Assembly: GCA_947451105.1 (NCBI GenBank)
Contig: CANFXY010000014.1
Coordinates: 1 to 34,990 of the forward strand
Direction of reading: 5' to 3'
DNA from: Bacteroidota bacterium
GTDB taxonomy: Bacteria > Bacteroidota > Bacteroidia > NS11-12g > UBA955
DNA: 34,990 nucleotides
Shown here: positions 6,086 through 30,978 of the stretch, in pieces
Position numbering within the stretch: the first letter of the stretch is position 1
Layout of the letters: the number at the start of each line of letters is the position of its first letter
The notes under the pieces: model-generated
Database searches by the model: none
What the model saw: only the letters and a program-made list of their open reading frames with translations
What the model was told of the DNA's origin: nothing
Translations under genes and position numbers: made by a program

Positions 6086-8467
6086 TTATTTTTTAGATTT
6101 CGCCTTTGCTTTGGCTTTCGCCTTTGCTCTAGCTTTTGGTTTAACTTTGCTTTCAGCAGCAACTTTACTGCCTTTCTTATCGCTCGGTTTGGCTTGGGCG
6201 CTTACAATTTCCATTACTTGTGTGTAGGTTAATGTATCAACCGCGGCATCTTTAGGTAATTTGTAATTGTTCTTTTTATGGGCAATGTATGGTCCCCATC
6301 TGCCTTTTAATATTTCTAAATTTTCATCTTCAGGGAAAGAGCGAATTAATTTTTCGGCTTCAGATTTGATCTTTGCCTCAATGATTTCAACCGCATCTTC
6401 CATGTTGATTTCGAAAATATCTTTGTCTTTTGGAATAGAGGCAAACATACTTCCGTATTTAATATAAGGGCCGAATCTACCTATGGCAGCAGTAACTTTT
6501 AGATTTTGATATTCTCCAATGGTTCTTGGCAATTTAAATAAATCTAAAGCTTGCTCAAGTGTTAGTGTTTCTAATGATTGACCAGCACGCAGACTAGCAA
6601 ATTTTTTGTCTTCATCTTCAGAATCTCCAATCTGAACCAATGGTCCATAGCGGCCAATTCTACCACTAATCTGTTTGCCTGATTCTGGATCAATTCCTAT
6701 AATTCTCTCACCTTTTACTCTTTCTGCATTGGCTAGAGTTTTGTCAACATCTTTATGGAATGGTTTGTAGAAACCATCAATCATTTTGGTCCAACTAATC
6801 ATACCATGAGCTATTTCGTCAAATTCTTTTTCAACGTTAGCGGTGAAGCTATAATTCATGATGTCACCGAAGTGTTCATTCAAGAAATCAGTTACCAAAG
6901 TTCCAATATCGGTAGGGAATAATTTGCTTTTTTCTACACCAGTGTTTTCTGTTGCTGTTTTTACTTTGATTTCGCCGTTTTTCAATAATGCGGTTTGGTA
7001 GTTTCTCGGAGTTCCTTCGCGGTTGTCTTTGATCACATAACCTCTTTTTTGAACGGTAGAGATGGTTGGCGCATAAGTAGATGGTCTGCCAATGCCCAAT
7101 TCCTCGAGTTTTTTAACCAAACTTGCTTCTGTATATCTAGGTGCAGGACGGCTGAATTTTTGTTCAGAAACCATTTGGTTTAAGTTCAACTGTTCACCTT
7201 GAGACAATGGTGGCAATAAGCCAGTATCCTCGTCTTCATCCTCTTCGTCTTTTCCTTCAAGGTATACTTTTAGGAAGCCATCAAATTTGATAATTTCACC
7301 TTCAGCACGCATTGATTGGTTTGCTTTGCTTACATTGATGTCAACCACAGTTCTCTCCAACTCAGCATTGGCCATTTGACTTGCTATAGAGCGTTTCCAA
7401 ATTAACTCATACAAACGCACCTCTTGAGCTTCTGCACCTGCGGTGTGGTTTTCAAAATAAGTAGGACGTATGGCTTCGTGCGCTTCTTGAGCACTTGCGT
7501 TTTTGGTGGTGTAATTTCTAGGCGCGCTGTATTGTGCTCCATAGGCTCTATTAATTTCAGCAGCAGCACCACTTATAGCGGTTTGCGACAAGTTAACAGA
7601 GTCCGTTCTCATATAGGTTATATGTCCAGCTTCGTAAAGTTTTTGGGCCAAGAGCATTGTTTTGGCAACAGGATAGCCAAGCTTTCTACTGGCTTCTTGT
7701 TGTAGAGTACTGGTTGTAAATGGCGCAGCAGCTTTCCTTTGCGCTGGTTTTACTTCGATATTGTTAATTGTGAAATTGCTTTCTGAAGCGGATTGCAAAA
7801 AGTTTAGTGCTTCTTGCTCTGTTTTGAAACGCTGTGGAAGCTCCGCTTTAATAGGCTTATTGCTTCCAATTTTTGTGAATTCAGCAGTGATTCTATAATC
7901 GCTAACTGAATTAAATTGGTTAACCTCACGCTCACGCTCAACGATTAATCTAACGGCAACAGATTGAACCCTGCCTGCAGATAGAGATGGTTTTACTTTT
8001 TTCCATAAAACTGGAGAAAGTTCAAAACCAACCAAGCGGTCGAGGATACGACGAGCTTGCTGTGCATCAACCAAAGCTTTGTCAATCTTACGCGGATTTT
8101 TAATCGCGTTTTCAATGGCTGGCTTAGTGATTTCATGGAAAACAATGCGTTTGGTGTTCTCTTCTTTAAGGCCTAAGACTTCAAATAGGTGCCAAGAAAT
8201 GGCTTCCCCTTCGCGGTCCTCATCCGATGCCAACCAAACCATTTCACTTTCTTTTGCTAGTTTTTTAAGTTCAGCTACAACTTTTGTTTTATCTGGTGAA
8301 ACAATGTAATTCGGTTTAAATCCATTTGCGATATCAATGGCGTTGTCGCCTTTGTCTAGGTCGCGAATGTGTCCGAAACTTGATCGCACTGTATAGTCTT
8401 TGCCAAGAAATTTTTCTATGGTTTTGGCTTTTGCAGGCGACTCAACAATTACTAAGTTTTTTGTCAT
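6086..8467 (-). CDS. topA: DNA topoisomerase I, with Lys/Ala-rich C-terminal tail
   Basis: MTKNLVIVESPAKAKTIEKFLG; ASDEDREGEAISWHL; GHITYMRTDSVNLS; EAHEAIRPT. Start placed at internal Met (8467). Confidence 0.95.
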   Translation of the reverse strand: MTKNLVIVESPAKAKTIEKFLGKDYTVRSSFGHIRDLDKGDNAIDIANGFKPNYIVSPDKTKVVAELKKLAKESEMVWLASDEDREGEAISWHLFEVLGLKEENTKRIVFHEITKPAIENAIKNPRKIDKALVDAQQARRILDRLVGFELSPVLWKKVKPSLSAGRVQSVAVRLIVEREREVNQFNSVSDYRITAEFTKIGSNKPIKAELPQRFKTEQEALNFLQSASESNFTINNIEVKPAQRKAAAPFTTSTLQQEASRKLGYPVAKTMLLAQKLYEAGHITYMRTDSVNLSQTAISGAAAEINRAYGAQYSAPRNYTTKNASAQEAHEAIRPTYFENHTAGAEAQEVRLYELIWKRSIASQMANAELERTVVDINVSKANQSMRAEGEIIKFDGFLKVYLEGKDEEDEDEDTGLLPPLSQGEQLNLNQMVSEQKFSRPAPRYTEASLVKKLEELGIGRPSTYAPTISTVQKRGYVIKDNREGTPRNYQTALLKNGEIKVKTATENTGVEKSKLFPTDIGTLVTDFLNEHFGDIMNYSFTANVEKEFDEIAHGMISWTKMIDGFYKPFHKDVDKTLANAERVKGERIIGIDPESGKQISGRIGRYGPLVQIGDSEDEDKKFASLRAGQSLETLTLEQALDLFKLPRTIGEYQNLKVTAAIGRFGPYIKYGSMFASIPKDKDIFEINMEDAVEIIEAKIKSEAEKLIRSFPEDENLEILKGRWGPYIAHKKNNYKLPKDAAVDTLTYTQVMEIVSAQAKPSDKKGSKVAAESKVKPKARAKAKAKAKAKSKK

Positions 8468-14428: not shown

Positions 14429-15487
14429 CTATAACTTATCTCCAAATTTAGCTGAAAAGCCAACACCAAAAAAGTTTTTTAATTGCCAATTTCTTTGAGT
14501 GCCTTCTAGATTGCTGTTGGTATCTACATCGTAATCCCATATCACTTGGTTGATGATAACCACAGAAATGTATTTATTCACTTTCATGTTCAAGGTGTTT
14601 TGCCAGTTTAAGTCAATTTGCTCAAAGGCGCCGCCACTAGGAAGGCTTTTGTAGTTCTTAAACAATTCCAATCGCGATTGGTAATTGATGTTTTTTGCCA
14701 CATCTTTATTGAATGTAAAGTTGATATAAACCCCGAGTTCTGTGCGCAGTTTTTGACCATCACTTAGTTTCTTTGGTGCATTTCCCAAATAAGCGCCAGT
14801 GGTGTCGTATTTAGCCGCCTCTACGCCATACAAACCAAGGTCTGCCAAGCGTTGCTCCCTCACCAAGGTGTATTTTGCGGTAACAGGAGAGAGGTAAATT
14901 GATAAATGCTTTTTAGGTTTGTAATCGATACCCAAAGAAAAGTAGCCAAAGCCTTGAGCTAAGAAATTTGAAACATGGTTGTCGCGTCTCAATATATCAG
15001 TGGCTGCCCAGCCGGGAAACATTTGGGTATTCAAACTTAAAAGGACTGAATAATTGGTCTTGTCGTTTATTTTCCTACCGTATTTTGAAAGGAAGACCAA
15101 TTTGTCTTCGTTTTTTACAAATGGGTTCGTTATACTTTTATTCGGGTCGCTTGGGTCGCTAATTTTACCCTCGCCATTTCTAATCACACCATAAGCAAGA
15201 TCTAAATAGTTTTCCCATATCCCTTTTCCGTTGCGGCTTCTGTTGATGGCGAACAAACTGGAGTTGGCAATAATGGCCATGTTGTTGGTTCCGCCCTGCG
15301 ACCAATTAGAGAATGTGGTACTGGATAGGTTGGTGCTAAAGAATCCACCTTTAACCCAGCCGGTATCCTTGATTTCTTTGATTACATTGCCTTCTGATGC
15401 TTTTTTCTTTACATCTTCGTCGGATGGTTGGGCAAATGCTGGAATCGCAAACGCAGCTATGGCGCACAATAAAAGTGTTTTTCTCAT
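14429..15487 (-). CDS. DUF3078 domain-containing secreted protein
   Basis: Signal MRKTLLLCAIAAFAIPAFA; GWVKGGFFSTNLSSTTFSNWSQGGTNN...ENYLDLAYGVIRNG typical of DUF3078. ATG at 15487 preferred over upstream start. Confidence 0.8.
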   Translation of the reverse strand: MRKTLLLCAIAAFAIPAFAQPSDEDVKKKASEGNVIKEIKDTGWVKGGFFSTNLSSTTFSNWSQGGTNNMAIIANSSLFAINRSRNGKGIWENYLDLAYGVIRNGEGKISDPSDPNKSITNPFVKNEDKLVFLSKYGRKINDKTNYSVLLSLNTQMFPGWAATDILRRDNHVSNFLAQGFGYFSLGIDYKPKKHLSIYLSPVTAKYTLVREQRLADLGLYGVEAAKYDTTGAYLGNAPKKLSDGQKLRTELGVYINFTFNKDVAKNINYQSRLELFKNYKSLPSGGAFEQIDLNWQNTLNMKVNKYISVVIINQVIWDYDVDTNSNLEGTQRNWQLKNFFGVGFSAKFGDKL

Positions 15488-15505
15488 TTTGTTAAAAATT
15501 TTTAA

Positions 15506-15540
15506 ATAAAAAAAAGTGCCAAGCGTAAATCTTGGCACTT
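15506..15540 (-). terminator. Rho-independent terminator of mscL
   Basis: AAGTGCCAAG-N7-CTTGGCACTT perfect 10-bp stem; on the minus strand followed by a run of T. Confidence 0.9.
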
Positions 15541-15556
15541 AAATACGTTAAGGTTT

Positions 15557-15844
15557 TTAGATTTTTTCTTTGGCTTTGTTCATTATTTTCACAATGCTAA
15601 ACAACACCAAAGCAATCAGCAAGAAGTTGATGCCTGATGCAAGCAATTTTCCATAGGTAAATGGCCCTGCTTTTAAATCTTCAATTTTGTTGAAACCACC
15701 AACTAAAGCGATAACTGGCATGATCATGTCGTTTACCAACGAATCGACAATTTTTTGGAAAGCACCACCTAAAATAACCGCAACGGCTAGGTCGATAACA
15801 TTTCCTTTGTTAATAAATTCTTTAAATTCTGATATGAATCCCAT
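15557..15844 (-). CDS. mscL: Large-conductance mechanosensitive channel
   Basis: FKEFINKGNVIDLAVAVILGGAFQKIVDSLVNDMIMPVIAL. Confidence 0.93.
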   Translation of the reverse strand: MGFISEFKEFINKGNVIDLAVAVILGGAFQKIVDSLVNDMIMPVIALVGGFNKIEDLKAGPFTYGKLLASGINFLLIALVLFSIVKIMNKAKEKI

Positions 15845-15863
15845 AGTGAGCTTGTTAATGTTT

Positions 15864-15871
15864 CGAAACTA
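15864..15871 (-). promoter_or_regulatory. -7-like element TAGTTTCG upstream of mscL
   Basis: TAnnTTCG variant, 19 nt from mscL ATG. Confidence 0.45.
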
Positions 15872-15920
15872 AAGGAAATTCAAGAATAATAAAATTTATT
15901 TCGCAAAATTAATTAATACA

Positions 15921-15943
15921 AAAGGGGGCACTAGGCCCCCTTT
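15921..15943 (-). terminator. Terminator-like hairpin downstream of sucC
   Basis: AAAGGGGGC-actag-GCCCCCTTT perfect 9-bp stem; short T-run on the minus strand. Confidence 0.75.
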
Positions 15944-15969
15944 CTAAGTAGCTATTAGCTAGTTCTTTA

Positions 15970-17181
15970 TTATCTCAAAACTTCCTTAACAAGTTCTGCG
16001 GCTTCTTTTAATAAGATAGCAGATTTAACTTGTAGGCCACTTTCGTCGATTAGTTTTTTAGCTTCAACAGCGTTTGTACCTTGAAGACGAACAATAATTG
16101 GAACATGTATGTTTCCCATTTTGTTGTAAGCATCAACAACACCTTGAGCAACCCTGTCGCATCTTACGATACCACCAAAGATGTTAATCAAGATTGCTTT
16201 AACGTTAGGATCACTTAAAATGATTTTGAAACCAGCTTCAACTGTTTCAGCGTTCGCAGTACCTCCAACATCCAAGAAGTTAGCAGGCTCGCCACCACTT
16301 AATTTGATGATGTCCATGGTAGCCATAGCCAAACCAGCACCATTCACCATGCAACCAACGTTACCGTCAAGCTTTACATAGTTAAGATTGAATTTTTTAG
16401 CTTCTACCTCAGTTGGATCTTCTTCTTCTACGTCTCTTAAAGCTTCGTAGTCTTTGTGACGGTATAAAGCGTTTTCATCTAAGTCAACTTTAGCATCAAC
16501 TGCGATAATTCTATCGTCAGATGTTTTTAATACAGGGTTGATTTCGAACATTGCGCTATCGGTTTCTTCGTATGCTTTGTATAAAGCAGTAACGAATTTT
16601 TCCATTTCTTTTTCAGCTTTGCCGGTTAAGCCTAAGTTGAAAGCGATTTTTCTAGCTTGAAAACCTTGGAATCCAATTTTTGGATCAATCCATTCTCTTT
16701 GTAATTTTTCAGGCGTGTGTTCAGCAACTTCTTCGATGTCCATTCCACCTTCTGTGGTGTAGATGATAACATTTTGACCTTTTGCTCTGTCAAGCAATAC
16801 GCTCATGTAATATTCTTTAGGTTCGCTTTCACCTGGGTAGAAAACGTCTTGTGCAACCAATACACGGTTTACTTTTTTGCCTTTTGGGCCTGTTTGTATG
16901 GTAACCAAAGTGTTTCCTAAAAGATTTTTAGCAATGTTGCTCACATCGTCTAGGTTTTTGGCAATAGCAACACCGCGTTGCTCGCTGCCTTCAATCTTAC
17001 CTTTACCTCTACCACCTGCGTGGATTTGGGCTTTAAGTACTACCCAGCTGCTGCCGGTTTGTGCCTGAATGTCTTTGGCTGCTTGAACAGCACCTTCTGG
17101 CGTGTCAGCTACGATGCCTTCTTGAATGGCTACGCCATAAGATTTTAAGATTTGTTTGGCTTGGAATTCGTGAATATTCAT
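15970..17181 (-). CDS. sucC: Succinate-CoA ligase (ADP-forming) subunit beta
   Basis: [71 protein letters not shown]. Confidence 0.97.
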
Positions 17182-17217
17182 TTAATGACTATATTTATCT
17201 GGGTTAAAAAACGTGGG

Positions 17218-17225
17218 CGAAAATA
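17218..17225 (-). promoter_or_regulatory. -7-like element TATTTTCG upstream of sucC
   Basis: TAnnTTCG variant, 36 nt from sucC ATG. Confidence 0.4.
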
Positions 17226-17277
17226 CAAAAAAATATTGTTTTGTTTTGAATAAAATAAAATCCATTTTCGCAATACG

Positions 17278-17937
17278 ATGATTACAGCCACTGAAATTGT
17301 GAAATACTATGGAGAATTGCAGGTTCTTAAAGGCATAAATCTCGAGATTAAAGACAGCGAGATTGTTTCTATTGTTGGAGATTCCGGTGCCGGGAAAACC
17401 ACCCTTTTGCAAATTCTTGGGACCTTAGACTCATCTACCAAAGGTAAAATTCTTTACGATGGGGTGGACGTTCAAGCGCTAAAATCGAAAGCACTAGCAG
17501 ATTTCAGAAATGCCAATATTGGTTTTATCTTCCAATTTCACCAACTTCTTCCTGAGTTTACTTGCCTAGAAAATGTATGCATGCCTGCTTTTATTGCCGG
17601 AAAAGACAAAAAGAGCAGTGAAATAAGGGCCAAAGAGTTGTTGGATTATTTGGGTTTGTCCCACCGATACAACCATAAACCGAGCGAACTTTCTGGTGGT
17701 GAGCAACAACGCTGCGCAGTTGCCAGGGCATTAATGAACAAGCCTAAAGTTGTTTTTGCTGATGAGCCCAGTGGAAACTTAGACAGCCGCAATGCCAATG
17801 AATTGCACCAGTTGTTTTTAAATTTGAGAAAAGACTTTGGCTACAGCTTTGTAATCGTTACGCACAATGAAGACTTTGCCAATATGGCCGACCGAAAATT
17901 GGTGATGCGCGATGGACTGATTATCGAGGGTGCTTAA
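17278..17937 (+). CDS. ABC transporter ATP-binding protein, LolD-type
   Basis: Walker [27 protein letters not shown], Walker [14 protein letters not shown]. Confidence 0.9.
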
Positions 17938-18947
17938 AATCTTCGGGCTTCCTCTTCCTCTTTTAAGTTGAACTTTTCAATATAAGAATCAAATTCCCCT
18001 CCTTGTGGTAGTAAACGTGTTTCTATTTGAAACAAAACCATTGATTCTAAAAAGGCTTTTTCAAATGCAGTTAGTGATGCGATGCTTTTGTATTTCATAA
18101 AACCTTGGTAGAAACTTAGTTGGAAATCTTGAATTGGCAACATATAAGCCGCACTTATTGCCTCAAGGTGTAGGTTGCTGGCATTGCCTTTAAGCACATA
18201 ATATAGGTATTGGTAATTGCTGCTGTCGTTGAGTGTAACACTTGCAGGGACAGTAACTAAAGTGTCATGCCCTTTGCTTGGGTCGGTTGGATCTGTTGAT
18301 ACAAAGGCAGGGTAGTCGTAACTGCCTCTGCTCAATTTTTCGCTCGCGGTAAAAGTAGAAATAAGGGAATCTGTTTTGTACAAGATGCTTGTTGGTTTTT
18401 GACCTTCATCGAACAATTGCTTATTGAATCGGATTAAAATATTAGCACTGCTTTGGGGAATGCTTTCTAAATAGACAACTTGGTTTACCGCATACATGCC
18501 CAAATACTGTTTCATTTCTTCGTTCATGAGTTTTTGAAATTGCAAATAATCAAAGCTTACTTTCGGTGCGTTTTTACTGGTTTGAACATCTATTCTTGTT
18601 TTGTATATTTCGAAAGAATAGAAAGGTTCTGTAATAGGCGCAATGAAAGTTGTGTCATAACCCTTGGTGGGGTCGTCGTTGTCAGTCGATATAAAAGCAA
18701 CTACTTCTTGCTCAAAAAATTTATGGCCTTCGTTTGCGGCTAATGACTTGCCGCTATATGATAAAGCCTTTAACTTGTTGTTTAAAATTGCAGGAAGTAT
18801 CATTTCACTAATCGCGATGTGTTGTCTGTAAGCCCAAGCCCCTAATTCATATTGACTAAAACGTGCAGGGATTGTTTTGGCCTGGATTTGCAAAGAGGCA
18901 ATAATTAATAAACCAGCAAATAAGATTTTTGAGAAATGATTTTTCAT
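17934..18947 (-). CDS. Uncharacterised secreted protein with an internally repeated motif
   Basis: Signal peptide [23 protein letters not shown]; two copies of F[IV]STDxxDP[TS]KG[YH]DT about 130 residues apart. Confidence 0.75.
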
Positions 18948-19029
18948 GATTAGAGATAGAGGTTGTTTTGATTATTTAAATCAAAAGTAACACTTTTTAT
19001 TAAAAACTCAAATTTTTATCAAAATTATT

Positions 19030-19037
19030 TACCTTCG
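19030..19037 (+). promoter_or_regulatory. -7-like element TACCTTCG
   Basis: TAnnTTCG variant 10 nt upstream of ATG 19048. Confidence 0.4.
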
Positions 19038-19047
19038 CATAAGTAAT

Positions 19048-20352
19048 ATGAAATACCAAAGCATTGATAGCCGTTTGTTTGTAGAAAACCGTAAGAAGTT
19101 TGTGGCCCAAATGAAGCCCAATAGTATCGCTATTTTTAGAAGCAATTATGAATTTACCCGCAATGGAGATGCCACTATGGATTTTAAGCAAAATTCAGAT
19201 TTCTTTTGGTTGTGTGGAATTGATCAAGAAGACAGCATTTTGGTTTTATATCCAGATTGTCCGGAAGAAGCTTACCGCGAATGTTTGTTTTTAAAACAGA
19301 CCTCGCCAACTATTGCTATTTGGGATGGACACAAATACACCAAAGAAGAGGCAAAAGCAAGTTCAGGTATACAAAATATATTTTGGAACGATGTGTTTCA
19401 AACAGCGATACGCTCCAAAATTAACTATGCAGAAAATGTATATTTAACTTTAAATGAAAACGACCGTTACAGCTACAAAGCACCCTATAGCGATTTGGAT
19501 TTTGCACGTGGGTTGAAAAATGATTTTCCATTGCATACTTACCACAGAGCAGCGCCAATACTTCAAAGACTGCGCAGTGTAAAGTCGGATATAGAAATGG
19601 CTTTAATTCGCCATGCAATTTCAATTTCTAAAAAGGGCTTTGAACGCATTATGGCATTTACCAAGCCAGGTGTGATGGAGTATGAAGTCGAAGCAGAATT
19701 GATTCACCAATACATTCGCAATGCAGCCAATGGACATTCGTTTCACCCAATTGTTGCGAGTGGAGCAAGCGCTTGTGTTTTGCATTATATAGACAACAAC
19801 AAAGTGTGTAGTGATGGCGATCTGTTGTTGGTGGATTGCGGGGTTGATTATGGTAATTACGCCAGTGATATGACCCGCGTAATTCCTGTGAATGGCAAGT
19901 TTACACCCAGACAAAAAGATGTTTACAATGCTGTGCTAAGGGTAATGCGTGCGGCAACAAAATTATTGGTTCCAGGTACACAATTAATGGAATACCATAA
20001 AGTTGTGGGCAAAGAATTAATGGAAAAAGAATTGGTTGATTTGGGTCTGTTGAGCATGGATGACATTAAGAATGAAGACCCAGCTTGGCCGGCTTATAAA
20101 AAGTATTTCATGCACGGAACCAGCCATTTCTTGGGTATAGACGTTCATGATGTGGGCATGCGTTATGAACCAATGCAAGCCAATCATTTGTTTACTTGCG
20201 AGCCTGGTATTTATATTCCTGAAGAAGGAATCGGAATTCGTATTGAAAACAATATTTTGTTAAGCAATAATGGCCCAATTGATTTGATGGATGAAATTGG
20301 AATGCCAATAGAAGTAGAAGAAATCGAACAAGCAATGTCTGCGCGTTCATAA
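19048..20352 (+). CDS. Xaa-Pro aminopeptidase (aminopeptidase P family, M24B)
   Basis: N-terminal AMP_N-like region; metal-binding motifs LLVDCGVDYGNYASDMTRVIPV, HGTSHFLGIDVHDVG, CEPGIYIPEEGIGIRIEN. Confidence 0.93.
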   Translation: MKYQSIDSRLFVENRKKFVAQMKPNSIAIFRSNYEFTRNGDATMDFKQNSDFFWLCGIDQEDSILVLYPDCPEEAYRECLFLKQTSPTIAIWDGHKYTKEEAKASSGIQNIFWNDVFQTAIRSKINYAENVYLTLNENDRYSYKAPYSDLDFARGLKNDFPLHTYHRAAPILQRLRSVKSDIEMALIRHAISISKKGFERIMAFTKPGVMEYEVEAELIHQYIRNAANGHSFHPIVASGASACVLHYIDNNKVCSDGDLLLVDCGVDYGNYASDMTRVIPVNGKFTPRQKDVYNAVLRVMRAATKLLVPGTQLMEYHKVVGKELMEKELVDLGLLSMDDIKNEDPAWPAYKKYFMHGTSHFLGIDVHDVGMRYEPMQANHLFTCEPGIYIPEEGIGIRIENNILLSNNGPIDLMDEIGMPIEVEEIEQAMSARS

Positions 20353-26632: not shown

Positions 26633-27721
26633 TTAAAACCACTTTTTGCGTTTGAAATAAACCAACATGCCCAAAACCACTAAGATGGTTAAGCCCCAGA
26701 AATAGTAATAGCCATTTGGGTTGTTTAAAGCAGGGAAATATTTAAAATTCATACCAAATACACCGGTTAAAAAACTCAAAGGCATAAAGATGGTGCTAAT
26801 AATGGTTAGTACTTTCATCACCACGTTTAAGCGGTTGCTCATGGTGGTGAAATAAATATTCATCAAATCGTTGAGCAAACTTTTATGGTTTTCAATGGTG
26901 TCGTAGGCTTGGTAGGTATGGTCGTATACATCTCTAAAATAATTGATGCTTTTTTCTTCAATCAATTCAGAGTTGCCAGAGTCTAATTTGTTTAAGGCCT
27001 CGCGCATTGGTAAAATGTGCTTACTCAAAACCATTAATTCTTTTTTGATGCCTTGTATTTTAAACGAAGTTTCATTGTCGGGGTAATGCATGGTTTCCTC
27101 TTCAATGTCTTCAACCAAGTCGCCAATCTTGTCAATCAAAACAAAGTATTGGTCAACGGCCGTGTCCATGATTTTATAGAGCAAGTAGTCGGCTTTTTTG
27201 GTTCTTATACTGCCTTTTGCGGTGTGCAAGCGTCGGATGATTTCATTGAACAAATGGCTGTCTGTTTCTTGAAAAGAGATCAAATAGTTTTTACCCAATA
27301 TGATGCTGATTTGTTCCGTCTCAACACATTTGTTGGTGTCAGAGTAAAAGATGTTTTTAAACGTTACGAAAAGGTAAGTATCGAACTCTTCAATTTTTGT
27401 TCTTTGTTGGGTGTTTAAAATGTCTTCTTGAACCAGAGGATGCACCTGGAATAGATTGCAAATTTCTTCTACTTTATTTGCCTCATGAATGCCAGTGATT
27501 GAAATCCAGGTTATGCTTTCGTTTTCAGAATACGTTTTACAGGTTTTAAAATCATCGACCACCAATTCTTCGAGTTTGTTGCCATCGTAGTTAATGATTT
27601 TAACCACCATTTTTCCTGTGCGTTCTTCACCCACATACACCATGCTTTCTGAGGGAAGATGCGATTTAGCCGACAGCCTTTTTCTGTTTTTAGGAAGAAT
27701 TCTCTTTTTTAAACGCGCCAT
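26633..27721 (-). CDS. corA: Magnesium/cobalt transporter CorA
   Basis: C-terminal TM region TIISTIFMPLSFLTGVFGMNFKYFP (GMN motif); WISITGIHEANKVEEICNLFQVHPLVQEDILNTQQRTKIEEFD. Confidence 0.95.
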   Translation of the reverse strand: MARLKKRILPKNRKRLSAKSHLPSESMVYVGEERTGKMVVKIINYDGNKLEELVVDDFKTCKTYSENESITWISITGIHEANKVEEICNLFQVHPLVQEDILNTQQRTKIEEFDTYLFVTFKNIFYSDTNKCVETEQISIILGKNYLISFQETDSHLFNEIIRRLHTAKGSIRTKKADYLLYKIMDTAVDQYFVLIDKIGDLVEDIEEETMHYPDNETSFKIQGIKKELMVLSKHILPMREALNKLDSGNSELIEEKSINYFRDVYDHTYQAYDTIENHKSLLNDLMNIYFTTMSNRLNVVMKVLTIISTIFMPLSFLTGVFGMNFKYFPALNNPNGYYYFWGLTILVVLGMLVYFKRKKWF

Positions 27722-27728
27722 GGTATTG

Positions 27729-27736
27729 CAAACTTA
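27729..27736 (-). promoter_or_regulatory. -7 element TAAGTTTG upstream of corA
   Basis: Exact TAnnTTTG 7 nt from corA ATG. Confidence 0.55.
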
Positions 27737-27741
27737 AGGAA

Positions 27742-27817
27742 TAAATATTCGCTTTGTCGATAAGATTTAAAAAAAATAATTGGGGGATGGCTTCTCTGAA
27801 ATCGTATTAATGAGATG
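27742..27817. repeat. Direct repeat copy 1
   Basis: Matches 28752-28827 at 70/76 positions by eye; 53 identical bp at 27750-27802: CGCTTTGTCGATAAGATTTAAAAAAAATAATTGGGGGATGGCTTCTCTGAAAT. Confidence 0.95.
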
Positions 27818-27898
27818 GTTTTTAAGGATGTTTTATACAATTAGTATTTAACAAGAGGGGCTGTTTTGAAAACGGTTTAAAATTTCAAGTCAAAAACT

Positions 27899-28660
27899 TC
27901 AATAAAAAATGCTCTCATATGCAATGAATTTAAGAAATTTGATTTCATCCTTGTTTAGAATTCTTTTTAAATCTTTAATCCTGAATCTTCTGCTTACGCA
28001 AAGTCGAAAACCATTTTCTCCATATAACGCAAATTTGCTAAATTCAATTTTACAGTTCTTTCTTACTGTTTTATTATACTCAAAATAATACCCTTGTGGT
28101 TTTGAAAAATAAGGATAATCAAAGCTATCTCGTTGCTTGTTTGCCAGTATGTGGCGGGCAGTTTTATTGGAAATAGAATCTAGAATAACTTTAGCAAATA
28201 GCTTGAAATTTTCAAAACTCAATGAATTATTGGTTTCAAAATACAATTTCACAAAATGCGATTTATTAATCTCATTTTTAAAGTCAATTGTCCTGATGTA
28301 ACAATATACTTTTTTAGTTTTATATTCTTCTGCAATCATATGATTTAACAAAATTTTTACAAATTTTCTGTTTACCTCATATTCCTCAACATCAAAATAA
28401 TTAAGTTGAAGTAAATCTGAATCCATTACTTTTATTATCAAAAAAGAATCTAGATTAATTTTGTTTAAAAACAATGAATCACTATACGCTTCGATTTTTC
28501 CGGCTTCAATTTTCTCCAAGACTGAAAATGTAATGCTTTGGCATGACATCTTATAGTAATCTATCATTCTATCATTAAGAATAAATTTTTCACCTATCGA
28601 AACTTGAGCATTTAAAACACTAATAGTAAAGAGAAAAAATATATGGACTATGTGTTTCAT
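27899..28660 (-). CDS. Uncharacterised predicted secreted protein bracketed by direct repeats
   Basis: 253-aa ORF with N-terminal signal MKHIVHIFFLFTISVLNAQ; no family recognised; visibly AT-rich. Confidence 0.65.
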   Translation of the reverse strand: MKHIVHIFFLFTISVLNAQVSIGEKFILNDRMIDYYKMSCQSITFSVLEKIEAGKIEAYSDSLFLNKINLDSFLIIKVMDSDLLQLNYFDVEEYEVNRKFVKILLNHMIAEEYKTKKVYCYIRTIDFKNEINKSHFVKLYFETNNSLSFENFKLFAKVILDSISNKTARHILANKQRDSFDYPYFSKPQGYYFEYNKTVRKNCKIEFSKFALYGENGFRLCVSRRFRIKDLKRILNKDEIKFLKFIAYESIFY

Positions 28661-28751
28661 GTGTTTTGTAACAGTTGTAATTTGTTTGCAATTTAAATTA
28701 TTCTGAAGAAAAAGTCAAATGGATAGAGAGGAATACTTAGTGACTTGATTT

Positions 28752-28827
28752 TAAATACCCGCTTTGTCGATAAGATTTAAAAAAAATAATTGGGGGATGG
28801 CTTCTCTGAAATTGTATTAGTGGTATG
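28752..28827. repeat. Direct repeat copy 2
   Basis: Second copy, offset 1010 bp, running into the ATG at 28825. Confidence 0.95.
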
Positions 28828-29400
28828 AAAAAGTTTGTTTCCTTGATCTTTGGTCTTTTGTTCTCTTTGCTTGCAGGCGCGCAACACAAGAAAGCCTTTC
28901 AGTATTTAACATTCAAAACAGATTTGTTAAGGCCTGTTAACTTTGGTGTTGAAATTCCAAGCGGTGAGCGGGGAAGTGTGGATGTGAATTTCGGAACATT
29001 TTCAAGCACTTTGGTTGAAGACATTACTAAAACAGATATTCGCTTTGTTTACAAAAGCCATTTTAAAAAGTCATTAAAGACAGACAATTATCGGAGTACT
29101 TATTTCTCTTCAGGATTTCATTTGGCTGCCTGGACTATGGAGAATTCCCCTAAGCAAGACAATTCAAAAGAATACGGCGATTTGTTTGCCGGTTTTGTTT
29201 CTGTTGGAATAGGAAAGCGCTTAAAGTTTTTAGACTTCTGGGTTTCGAGCGATTTTATGCTCTTGCCCATGGTCAATAATTATCGATACTTGGATACTTA
29301 TGGGCAAACCATAAGCGACAAAGCTTGGAAGTTCCCCGTTATGGTATTTGTTGGTTGCTCTTTTGATTTTATCAATATAAATATCAATAAAGAGAAATAA
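28825..29400 (+). CDS. Uncharacterised secreted, probably beta-barrel-like protein
   Basis: Signal MKKFVSLIFGLLFSLLAGAQ and alternating aromatic/hydrophobic segments; no family firmly recognised. Confidence 0.65.
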   Translation: MKKFVSLIFGLLFSLLAGAQHKKAFQYLTFKTDLLRPVNFGVEIPSGERGSVDVNFGTFSSTLVEDITKTDIRFVYKSHFKKSLKTDNYRSTYFSSGFHLAAWTMENSPKQDNSKEYGDLFAGFVSVGIGKRLKFLDFWVSSDFMLLPMVNNYRYLDTYGQTISDKAWKFPVMVFVGCSFDFINININKEK

Positions 29401-30978
29401 CTATTTAAAACTCGCCGCTGCTTTCAATGCGTTTTCTGCATTCACGATGCCAGCAGTTTTACAAAGTTTTTTATACGTTGTTTTCTTTCTTTTCTTGCCT
29501 GGTTTAATGAATTTAGCTTCCGGTTTTACCACCGAGCTTTCAATAATTTGCTTCACTTGAACTGCGGTAAGATTTGGGTAGTATGACCAAATTAAAGCAG
29601 CTATTCCAGCCACTACTGGAGACGCCATGCTGGTGCCATCGTAGGCATCGTAAGTGCTGTTGCTCACTGTGCTGTAAATTTGTACGCCTGGCGCAAATAC
29701 ATCAACCGTAGCATTGCCATAATTGCTAAAATCTGCCGGTGCTTGGTTTCTGTCTGAAGCACCCACTTCTATCCATGTTTTGCAAAAAGAATCTTTTTGG
29801 TATTGTGCTGAAGGATAAAATATTTGATCGTCATTGTTTGAATGCTCATTGCCCGCAGCATGCACCATTAATACATTTTTACTTTCAGCATAGCGAATAG
29901 CGTCTCTTACAATTGCTGCATTATAGCTAACGCTTTTGCCAAAACTCATATTGATGATTTTAGCCCCATTGTCAACTGCATAACGGATAGCATGAGCCAC
30001 ATCTTTGTCGCGTTCGTCGCCATTAGGTACCACACGAAGACACATGATTTTTACTTTTGGCGCAATGCCGTCAATACCCAAACGGTTGTCTCTTGTTGCT
30101 GCGATAATACCTGCAACGTGGCTGCCGTGCTTGGAGTCAGGACCCATTACATTTTGGTTGCCATAGCCCAATGATTTTGCGTCCTCGTAATTGTCGCCAA
30201 TTTGTTTTCTAGAATCAAAATCAATATTTAAATGGTAGTACAATTTGTCAAACGCTTTTTCATAATCTTCGCGAATGCCTTTGAAAACTTCTTTAGGGGT
30301 CATACCTTCTTTGCAGAAACTTACCACCATAGAATAACCCATTTTAGCATCGACACTTTTAGGGTCAAACTTTAAAAGGTTTTGGTATGAAATGTTAGAG
30401 CTGTCCAATTCACTTAGTAGCGCATTGCTCATTTTTTCTAAAAATTTCATGATGTCGTAATCCTCTTGAGCCGCAGCATAATCTTTTTGATACTGCTTCT
30501 CCATTTTTAGATACTGTTTGTATTCGGCTTTTTCAGCTTTACTCAATTTAGAAAGGTCTTTGCTTTTGAATTTTTCTCTAGCATCACGGAGTAGGCGGGT
30601 AGACTCGAAATTGTCAAATTCAATATCGTTGGCTAAATTGCCAAGGAAGTCCCAACCATTGATGTCATCGATGTAACCATTGTGGTCATCGTCAACCGCA
30701 TTGCCAGGAATTTCTTTGGTATTCACCCAGATATTGTTTTGTAAATCGGGGTGCTTGATGTCTATACCATCGTCTATCACCGCCACAACTATAGGTTTGG
30801 CTTCTAGTGGAATGCCACTTGCACTTGTAGGGATTTGAAATTTGTTGAGACCATCAATAAGGCCTATGCCATAATTGGTGTCTTTGCTGTTGTATTGTAA
30901 ATGCCAATTTTTCGCATGTGATTGGGCCGACAATTGTAAGCAAGCTGTTAGGGTTAACAGCAGGAAAGTTTTATTCAT
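29401..30978 (-). CDS. S8 family serine peptidase (subtilase) with long insert between catalytic Asp and His
   Basis: VVAVIDDGIDIKHPDL (Asp), SKHGSHVAGIIAA (His), YDGTSMASPVVAGIAAL (Ser); signal peptide. Confidence 0.93.
   Translation of the reverse strand: MNKTFLLLTLTACLQLSAQSHAKNWHLQYNSKDTNYGIGLIDGLNKFQIPTSASGIPLEAKPIVVAVIDDGIDIKHPDLQNNIWVNTKEIPGNAVDDDHNGYIDDINGWDFLGNLANDIEFDNFESTRLLRDAREKFKSKDLSKLSKAEKAEYKQYLKMEKQYQKDYAAAQEDYDIMKFLEKMSNALLSELDSSNISYQNLLKFDPKSVDAKMGYSMVVSFCKEGMTPKEVFKGIREDYEKAFDKLYYHLNIDFDSRKQIGDNYEDAKSLGYGNQNVMGPDSKHGSHVAGIIAATRDNRLGIDGIAPKVKIMCLRVVPNGDERDKDVAHAIRYAVDNGAKIINMSFGKSVSYNAAIVRDAIRYAESKNVLMVHAAGNEHSNNDDQIFYPSAQYQKDSFCKTWIEVGASDRNQAPADFSNYGNATVDVFAPGVQIYSTVSNSTYDAYDGTSMASPVVAGIAALIWSYYPNLTAVQVKQIIESSVVKPEAKFIKPGKKRKKTTYKKLCKTAGIVNAENALKAAASFK

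Follow-up and report, generated by a model that had tools for sequence, protein, structure and literature searches.

The window, by which we mean the whole stretch of 34,990 nucleotides that was analysed, carries a real and recent gain of a single foreign-looking gene, which lies between two copies of duplicated intergenic DNA. The locus shows no new mobile element and, taken by itself, is an ordinary lineage-specific gene gain. We suggest, with a probability of about one half, that a foreign fragment carrying one gene was captured by a single crossover through short intergenic homology. It is poorly explained how bacteria acquire single orphan genes when no transposase or integrase is involved. 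A new gene that lies within freshly duplicated intergenic DNA of its neighbours preserves a trace of the event, so that the mechanism can be tested through close strains. The features concerned are the following.

26633-27721, minus strand: corA, magnesium/cobalt transporter gene, conserved flank (family searches)
27742-27817, no strand: direct repeat copy 1, upstream of corA
27818-28751, no strand: AT-rich block of 26.8% GC, gained between the two copies; its ORF has no counterpart in the genus
27899-28660, minus strand: orphan gene of 253 aa without a family; the product is probably secreted or in the envelope (ORF, searches, composition)
28752-28827, no strand: direct repeat copy 2, running into the g28825 start codon
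28825-29400, plus strand: g28825, 191 aa, signal-peptide-bearing, no library family (family searches)
29401-30978, minus strand: subtilase gene, conserved far flank; adjoins corA without g28825 in the relatives G008, G009, and G013

The direct repeat and the orphan gene

Sequence comparison gave an identity of 70/76 between the two repeat copies, at a spacing of 1010 bp, with an identical core of 53 bp (27750-27802 and 28760-28812) that is the longest exact repeat of the window; 20 dinucleotide shuffles gave 14-18 bp. The coordinates, the identity, and the core are exactly as given in the initial annotation, which had also placed copy 1 beside the corA promoter region and copy 2 at the start of g28825. 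Copy 2 does enter the start codon of g28825, and copy 1 starts 20 bp upstream of that of corA. The first 15 bp of copy 1 are ancestral corA upstream DNA; G010 matches this left end exactly, and G008 almost does. At its right end, copy 2 has the native DNA of the g28825 side, at the start of that gene. The six mismatches between the copies all lie outside the core (P = 0.003 under random placement). A −7-like box of corA (TAAGTTTG, minus strand, 27736-27729) reads as lying outside the repeat, and a promoter regex applied to four sites detected no full Bacteroidota −33/−7 promoter pair.

Two copies of the 76-bp sequence are present in its own assembly, and no comparable match was found elsewhere in that assembly or in the genus genomes. 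This distribution shows that the core is not an abundant ordinary regulatory sequence, and it does not bear out the earlier idea that the core might mark other one-gene insertions. The core was absent from the viral contigs scanned, the repeat region had no match in phage or plasmid records, and Rfam gave no match within 27600-28950. No transposase or integrase was recognised at the locus in the ORF list or by family searches, in line with the initial annotation, and no inverted repeats pairing both ends of the insert were found; we therefore rejected membership in a transposon or insertion sequence.

The single AT-rich ORF between the repeats had been described as belonging to no recognisable family, and its coding status, GC content, and library searches agree with this description. 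With 26.6% GC, compared with 38.5% in the window, and the lowest GC3 (0.244) among the 33 window genes, it exceeds every other gene of the window in AT content, and the probability of a stop-free frame of its full length arising by chance at its own composition is about 2e-11. No significant match was found in Pfam, NCBIfam, PHROGs, or PADLOC, and none in phage or plasmid records or, by peptide patterns, in IMG/VR viral contigs. None of the 16 other genus genomes searched carries the ORF, nor do the remaining ones among 110 genomes of the order, and no match at E <= 1e-4 was obtained across 396 genomes of the phylum. Eight partial matches at the class level (388 genomes; E of 4e-5 to 8e-3 per genome, the best being 4.2e-5) were rejected as homologs, several of them lying in much longer frames, and the best hit among solved structures (E = 0.089) was judged to be chance. 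Within the data searched, the ORF is an orphan of one species. This absence from the genus and the foreign-looking composition uphold the proposal that the ORF is a recent gain. Its N-terminus (MKHIVHIFFLFTISVLNAQ) resembles a signal peptide when read by eye, which suggests that the product is probably secreted or located in the envelope. Structures predicted from single sequences for the ORF and g28825 products (mean pLDDT of 31.5 and 34.9, respectively) were not used.

The corA junction in related genomes

The order S1P1-corA-subtilase-sppA-purB of the window is kept in G010 and G013 and partly kept in G008 and G009. The closest genome is G010, whose corA is 93% identical at the DNA level, and a tree of CorA groups the genome of the window (G000) with G010 and G008. 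In G010, the stretch that matches 27757-29397 is a run of exactly 100 N. This run (C99, L030:8115-8214) is the single N run in a 13-kb stretch, and its two ends fall at those of the variable block. It is most likely a scaffolding gap, and G010 therefore speaks neither for nor against an insertion. In the close relative G008, corA and the subtilase gene are separated by 57 bp of clean sequence without the ORF, the core, or g28825, and only the corA-side end of the repeat remains. The subtilase gene also adjoins corA in G009 and G013, where g28825 is absent.

Homologs of g28825 were found in four members of the genus, with identities of 24-29%, and in three of the four they lie within 3 kb of corA. 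In G003, corA and the homolog (28% identical) are divergent and about 98 bp apart, and the ORF is absent; the other two are G012 and G015. The genomes bearing g28825 do not form one clade in the CorA tree, which indicates that g28825 near corA was lost or gained more than once. We compared the G003 spacer with the empty site expected from the left part of copy 1 and the right part of copy 2. The likeness is weak, being reached by 25 of 2000 shuffles (~1%), but it is above that of the other relatives except G008. This comparison is no more than suggestive.

The initial annotation had proposed that an ancestral divergent corA/g28825 region was duplicated when a block of about 1 kb was gained, and that relatives might preserve the junction with one repeat and no ORF. 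The recent gain of the ORF and the divergent pair without the ORF in G003 favor the first proposal, but the exact empty allele, with a single repeat and g28825 and no ORF, was not found among the relatives compared. As for the junction itself, ORF-less forms do exist in G008 and G003, but that of G008 also lacks g28825 and that of G010 is hidden by the 100-N gap. We consider the insertion into the corA-g28825 intergenic region, with duplication of that region, to be partly supported.

Possible origins of the repeat-flanked insert

In the preferred reading, a horizontally acquired fragment consisting of the orphan ORF and its own upstream region would have entered the intergenic region between corA and the divergent g28825. 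The donor would have been circular or looped, and a short stretch of homologous intergenic sequence that it carried would have recombined with the chromosomal copy in a single crossover, leaving a copy of the intergenic region on either side of the insert. Copy 1 is native at its left end and copy 2 at its right end, and the other two repeat ends would then have been brought in by the insert. With one intergenic copy on each side, corA and g28825 would both retain their upstream DNA. We infer two parts of this course of events, namely that the corA/g28825 pair was ancestral in this lineage and that a single crossover occurred. The restriction of the mismatches to positions outside the core fits a crossover in the identical core that joined two slightly diverged copies, and a functionally constrained core would equally explain mismatches at the repeat ends. 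No donor of the ORF or the repeat was found among viral contigs and phage and plasmid records. Against the preferred reading, G008 lacks g28825 as well as the core, so that the indel could be the entire 27757-29397 block.

A tentative alternative is that the intergenic region was first duplicated locally, by tandem duplication or by template switching in replication or break repair, and that capture of the AT-rich DNA between the copies, without a homologous donor, took place in that event or afterwards. The lack of a repeat-bearing donor suits this course, as does the presence of intergenic repeat pairs that differ in sequence from pair to pair, several in this genome and one in G008 (see below). 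However, local duplication must account for both the duplication and the foreign gene, and no second copy of g28825 is traceable in the insert (best E = 1.2), a result which also led us to reject a tandem duplication of g28825 with a decayed first copy.

It is doubtful that two separate gains took place, in which a repeat-ORF unit and a repeat-g28825 unit entered a gene-free corA-subtilase junction such as that of G008. Such a history would agree with the subtilase gene lying beside corA without g28825 in three relatives, with the complete absence of the core from the near relative G008, and with the low identity of the window's g28825 to its homologs. However, the homologs near corA in three other members of the genus suggest an old association, and copy 2 nearly matches the corA-proximal DNA (TAAATA..CGCTTTG), which is expected only if the intergenic unit already existed.

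An assembly artefact from a strain mixture is quite unlikely. The assembly is fragmented and probably metagenome derived (196 contigs, 86% completeness), and the closest relative has its gap exactly at this place; however, the copies differ at six positions, and the contig continues through the conserved flanking gene order on both sides. Least probable of all is the site-specific, non-autonomous cassette with att-like ends that the initial annotation had left as an option, for which a clean intergenic site and one gene between direct repeats would speak, but which is unsupported given that the assembly has just two occurrences of the core and the other genus genomes none, that attC boxes are absent and the repeat folds no better than its shuffles, that no integrase was recognised in the window, and that the other repeat pairs of the genome are unrelated in sequence.

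The locus can be set beside three known systems. An integron cassette carries an attC site with RYYYAAC/GTTRRRY boxes and a folding strand, a recombination site which is common to many cassettes. The locus shares with integron cassettes and CALIN arrays the position of one gene between repeated sequences, but it has neither attC boxes and fold nor a recognised integrase, and its repeat is not dispersed; membership was rejected on the missing boxes and fold and on the two occurrences of the core. Campbell-type integration by a single crossover leaves the shared homology as a direct repeat on either side of the insert. A direct repeat likewise flanks the insert here, but there is no known circular donor and the homology is only ~76 bp. 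The third system is the minimal mobile element (Saunders and Snyder 2002, as described in PMC3898611), in which the content of whole genes varies between conserved genes across genomes or strains without a mobility gene, and for which, according to the same account, homologous recombination is the proposed sole route of incorporation. As a candidate at most for such an element, the locus has a foreign gene flanked by conserved ones and no recognised mobility gene, but the definition as it appears in PMC3898611 has no duplicated intergenic region, whereas here the repeat itself would be the homology. Moreover, the gene is found in one species only, and the comparison is across species, not strains: the content between corA and the subtilase gene is the ORF and g28825 in G000, neither in G008, G009, and G013, and a gap in G010. 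These genomes thus differ by presence and absence, and no alternative cassette was seen at the junction. A literature search for the exact phenomenon found no report.

Other repeat pairs in the sampled genomes

Direct repeats outside ORFs, at distances of 250-4000 bp, were sought in samples of the window's own genome (0.8 Mb), of G008 and G001 (0.4 Mb each), and of G029 (0.18 Mb). The genome of the window contained two more such pairs in intergenic DNA, each of which involves one small gene. In contig C7 (L087:1459-2173), a 56-bp terminator-like sequence (84% identical) flanks one gene for a lipoprotein-like protein of 110 aa; in G008, the same fructose-bisphosphatase-like gene is accompanied by one copy, with no lipoprotein-like gene, and the DNA on the other side differs. 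In contig C1 (71779-72500; L111:11779-12500), a 57-bp promoter-like sequence (86%) precedes each of two unrelated small tandem genes; here G008 carries a single element with a single gene, and the match to G010 extends over the entire stretch. In contig C2 of G008 (L134:8039-9823), a 70-bp terminator-like direct repeat (90% identical) surrounds two or three ORFs. The samples of G001 and G029 gave no comparable case, G001 having one short 28-bp pair around an ORF.

The sequences of these pairs are unrelated to one another and to the repeat of the window, a finding that favors a generic process based on homology or duplication over a recombination site in common. The two loci at which a small gene accompanies a duplicated intergenic sequence, and at both of which G008 has one copy and lacks that gene, support the capture view. 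Two further loci in 0.8 Mb are too few for a claim about rate. It is a speculative and rather improbable generalization that the genus recurrently gains single orphan genes by using locus-specific short intergenic sequences (promoters or terminators) as homology, with no mobility enzyme. If this were true, each new gene would arrive between two intergenic copies, and its neighbours would keep their signals.

Repeats in contigs C4 and C19 of the same genome were rejected as similar cases, since they lie in coding regions or paralogous gene arrays and are a different matter. Contig C4 (L084:1-20000) has Rhs-like repeats (1-293 and 2008-2300, 83%) beside orphan ORFs that are small and AT-rich. 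It also has a gene resembling a tyrosine recombinase at 2270 and, at 15354-19999, TPR-like genes in a tandem array. In G008, a stretch just upstream of the C2 repeat (~7848-8003) is found again in several contigs of both G000 and G010, and contig C7 (L103) carries imperfect tandem CT-rich copies (CACTCTCTTTTTTTATTCACACTCATTCTCACAT...) after a tRNA-like sequence, at most ~500 bp upstream of the terminator-like sequence.
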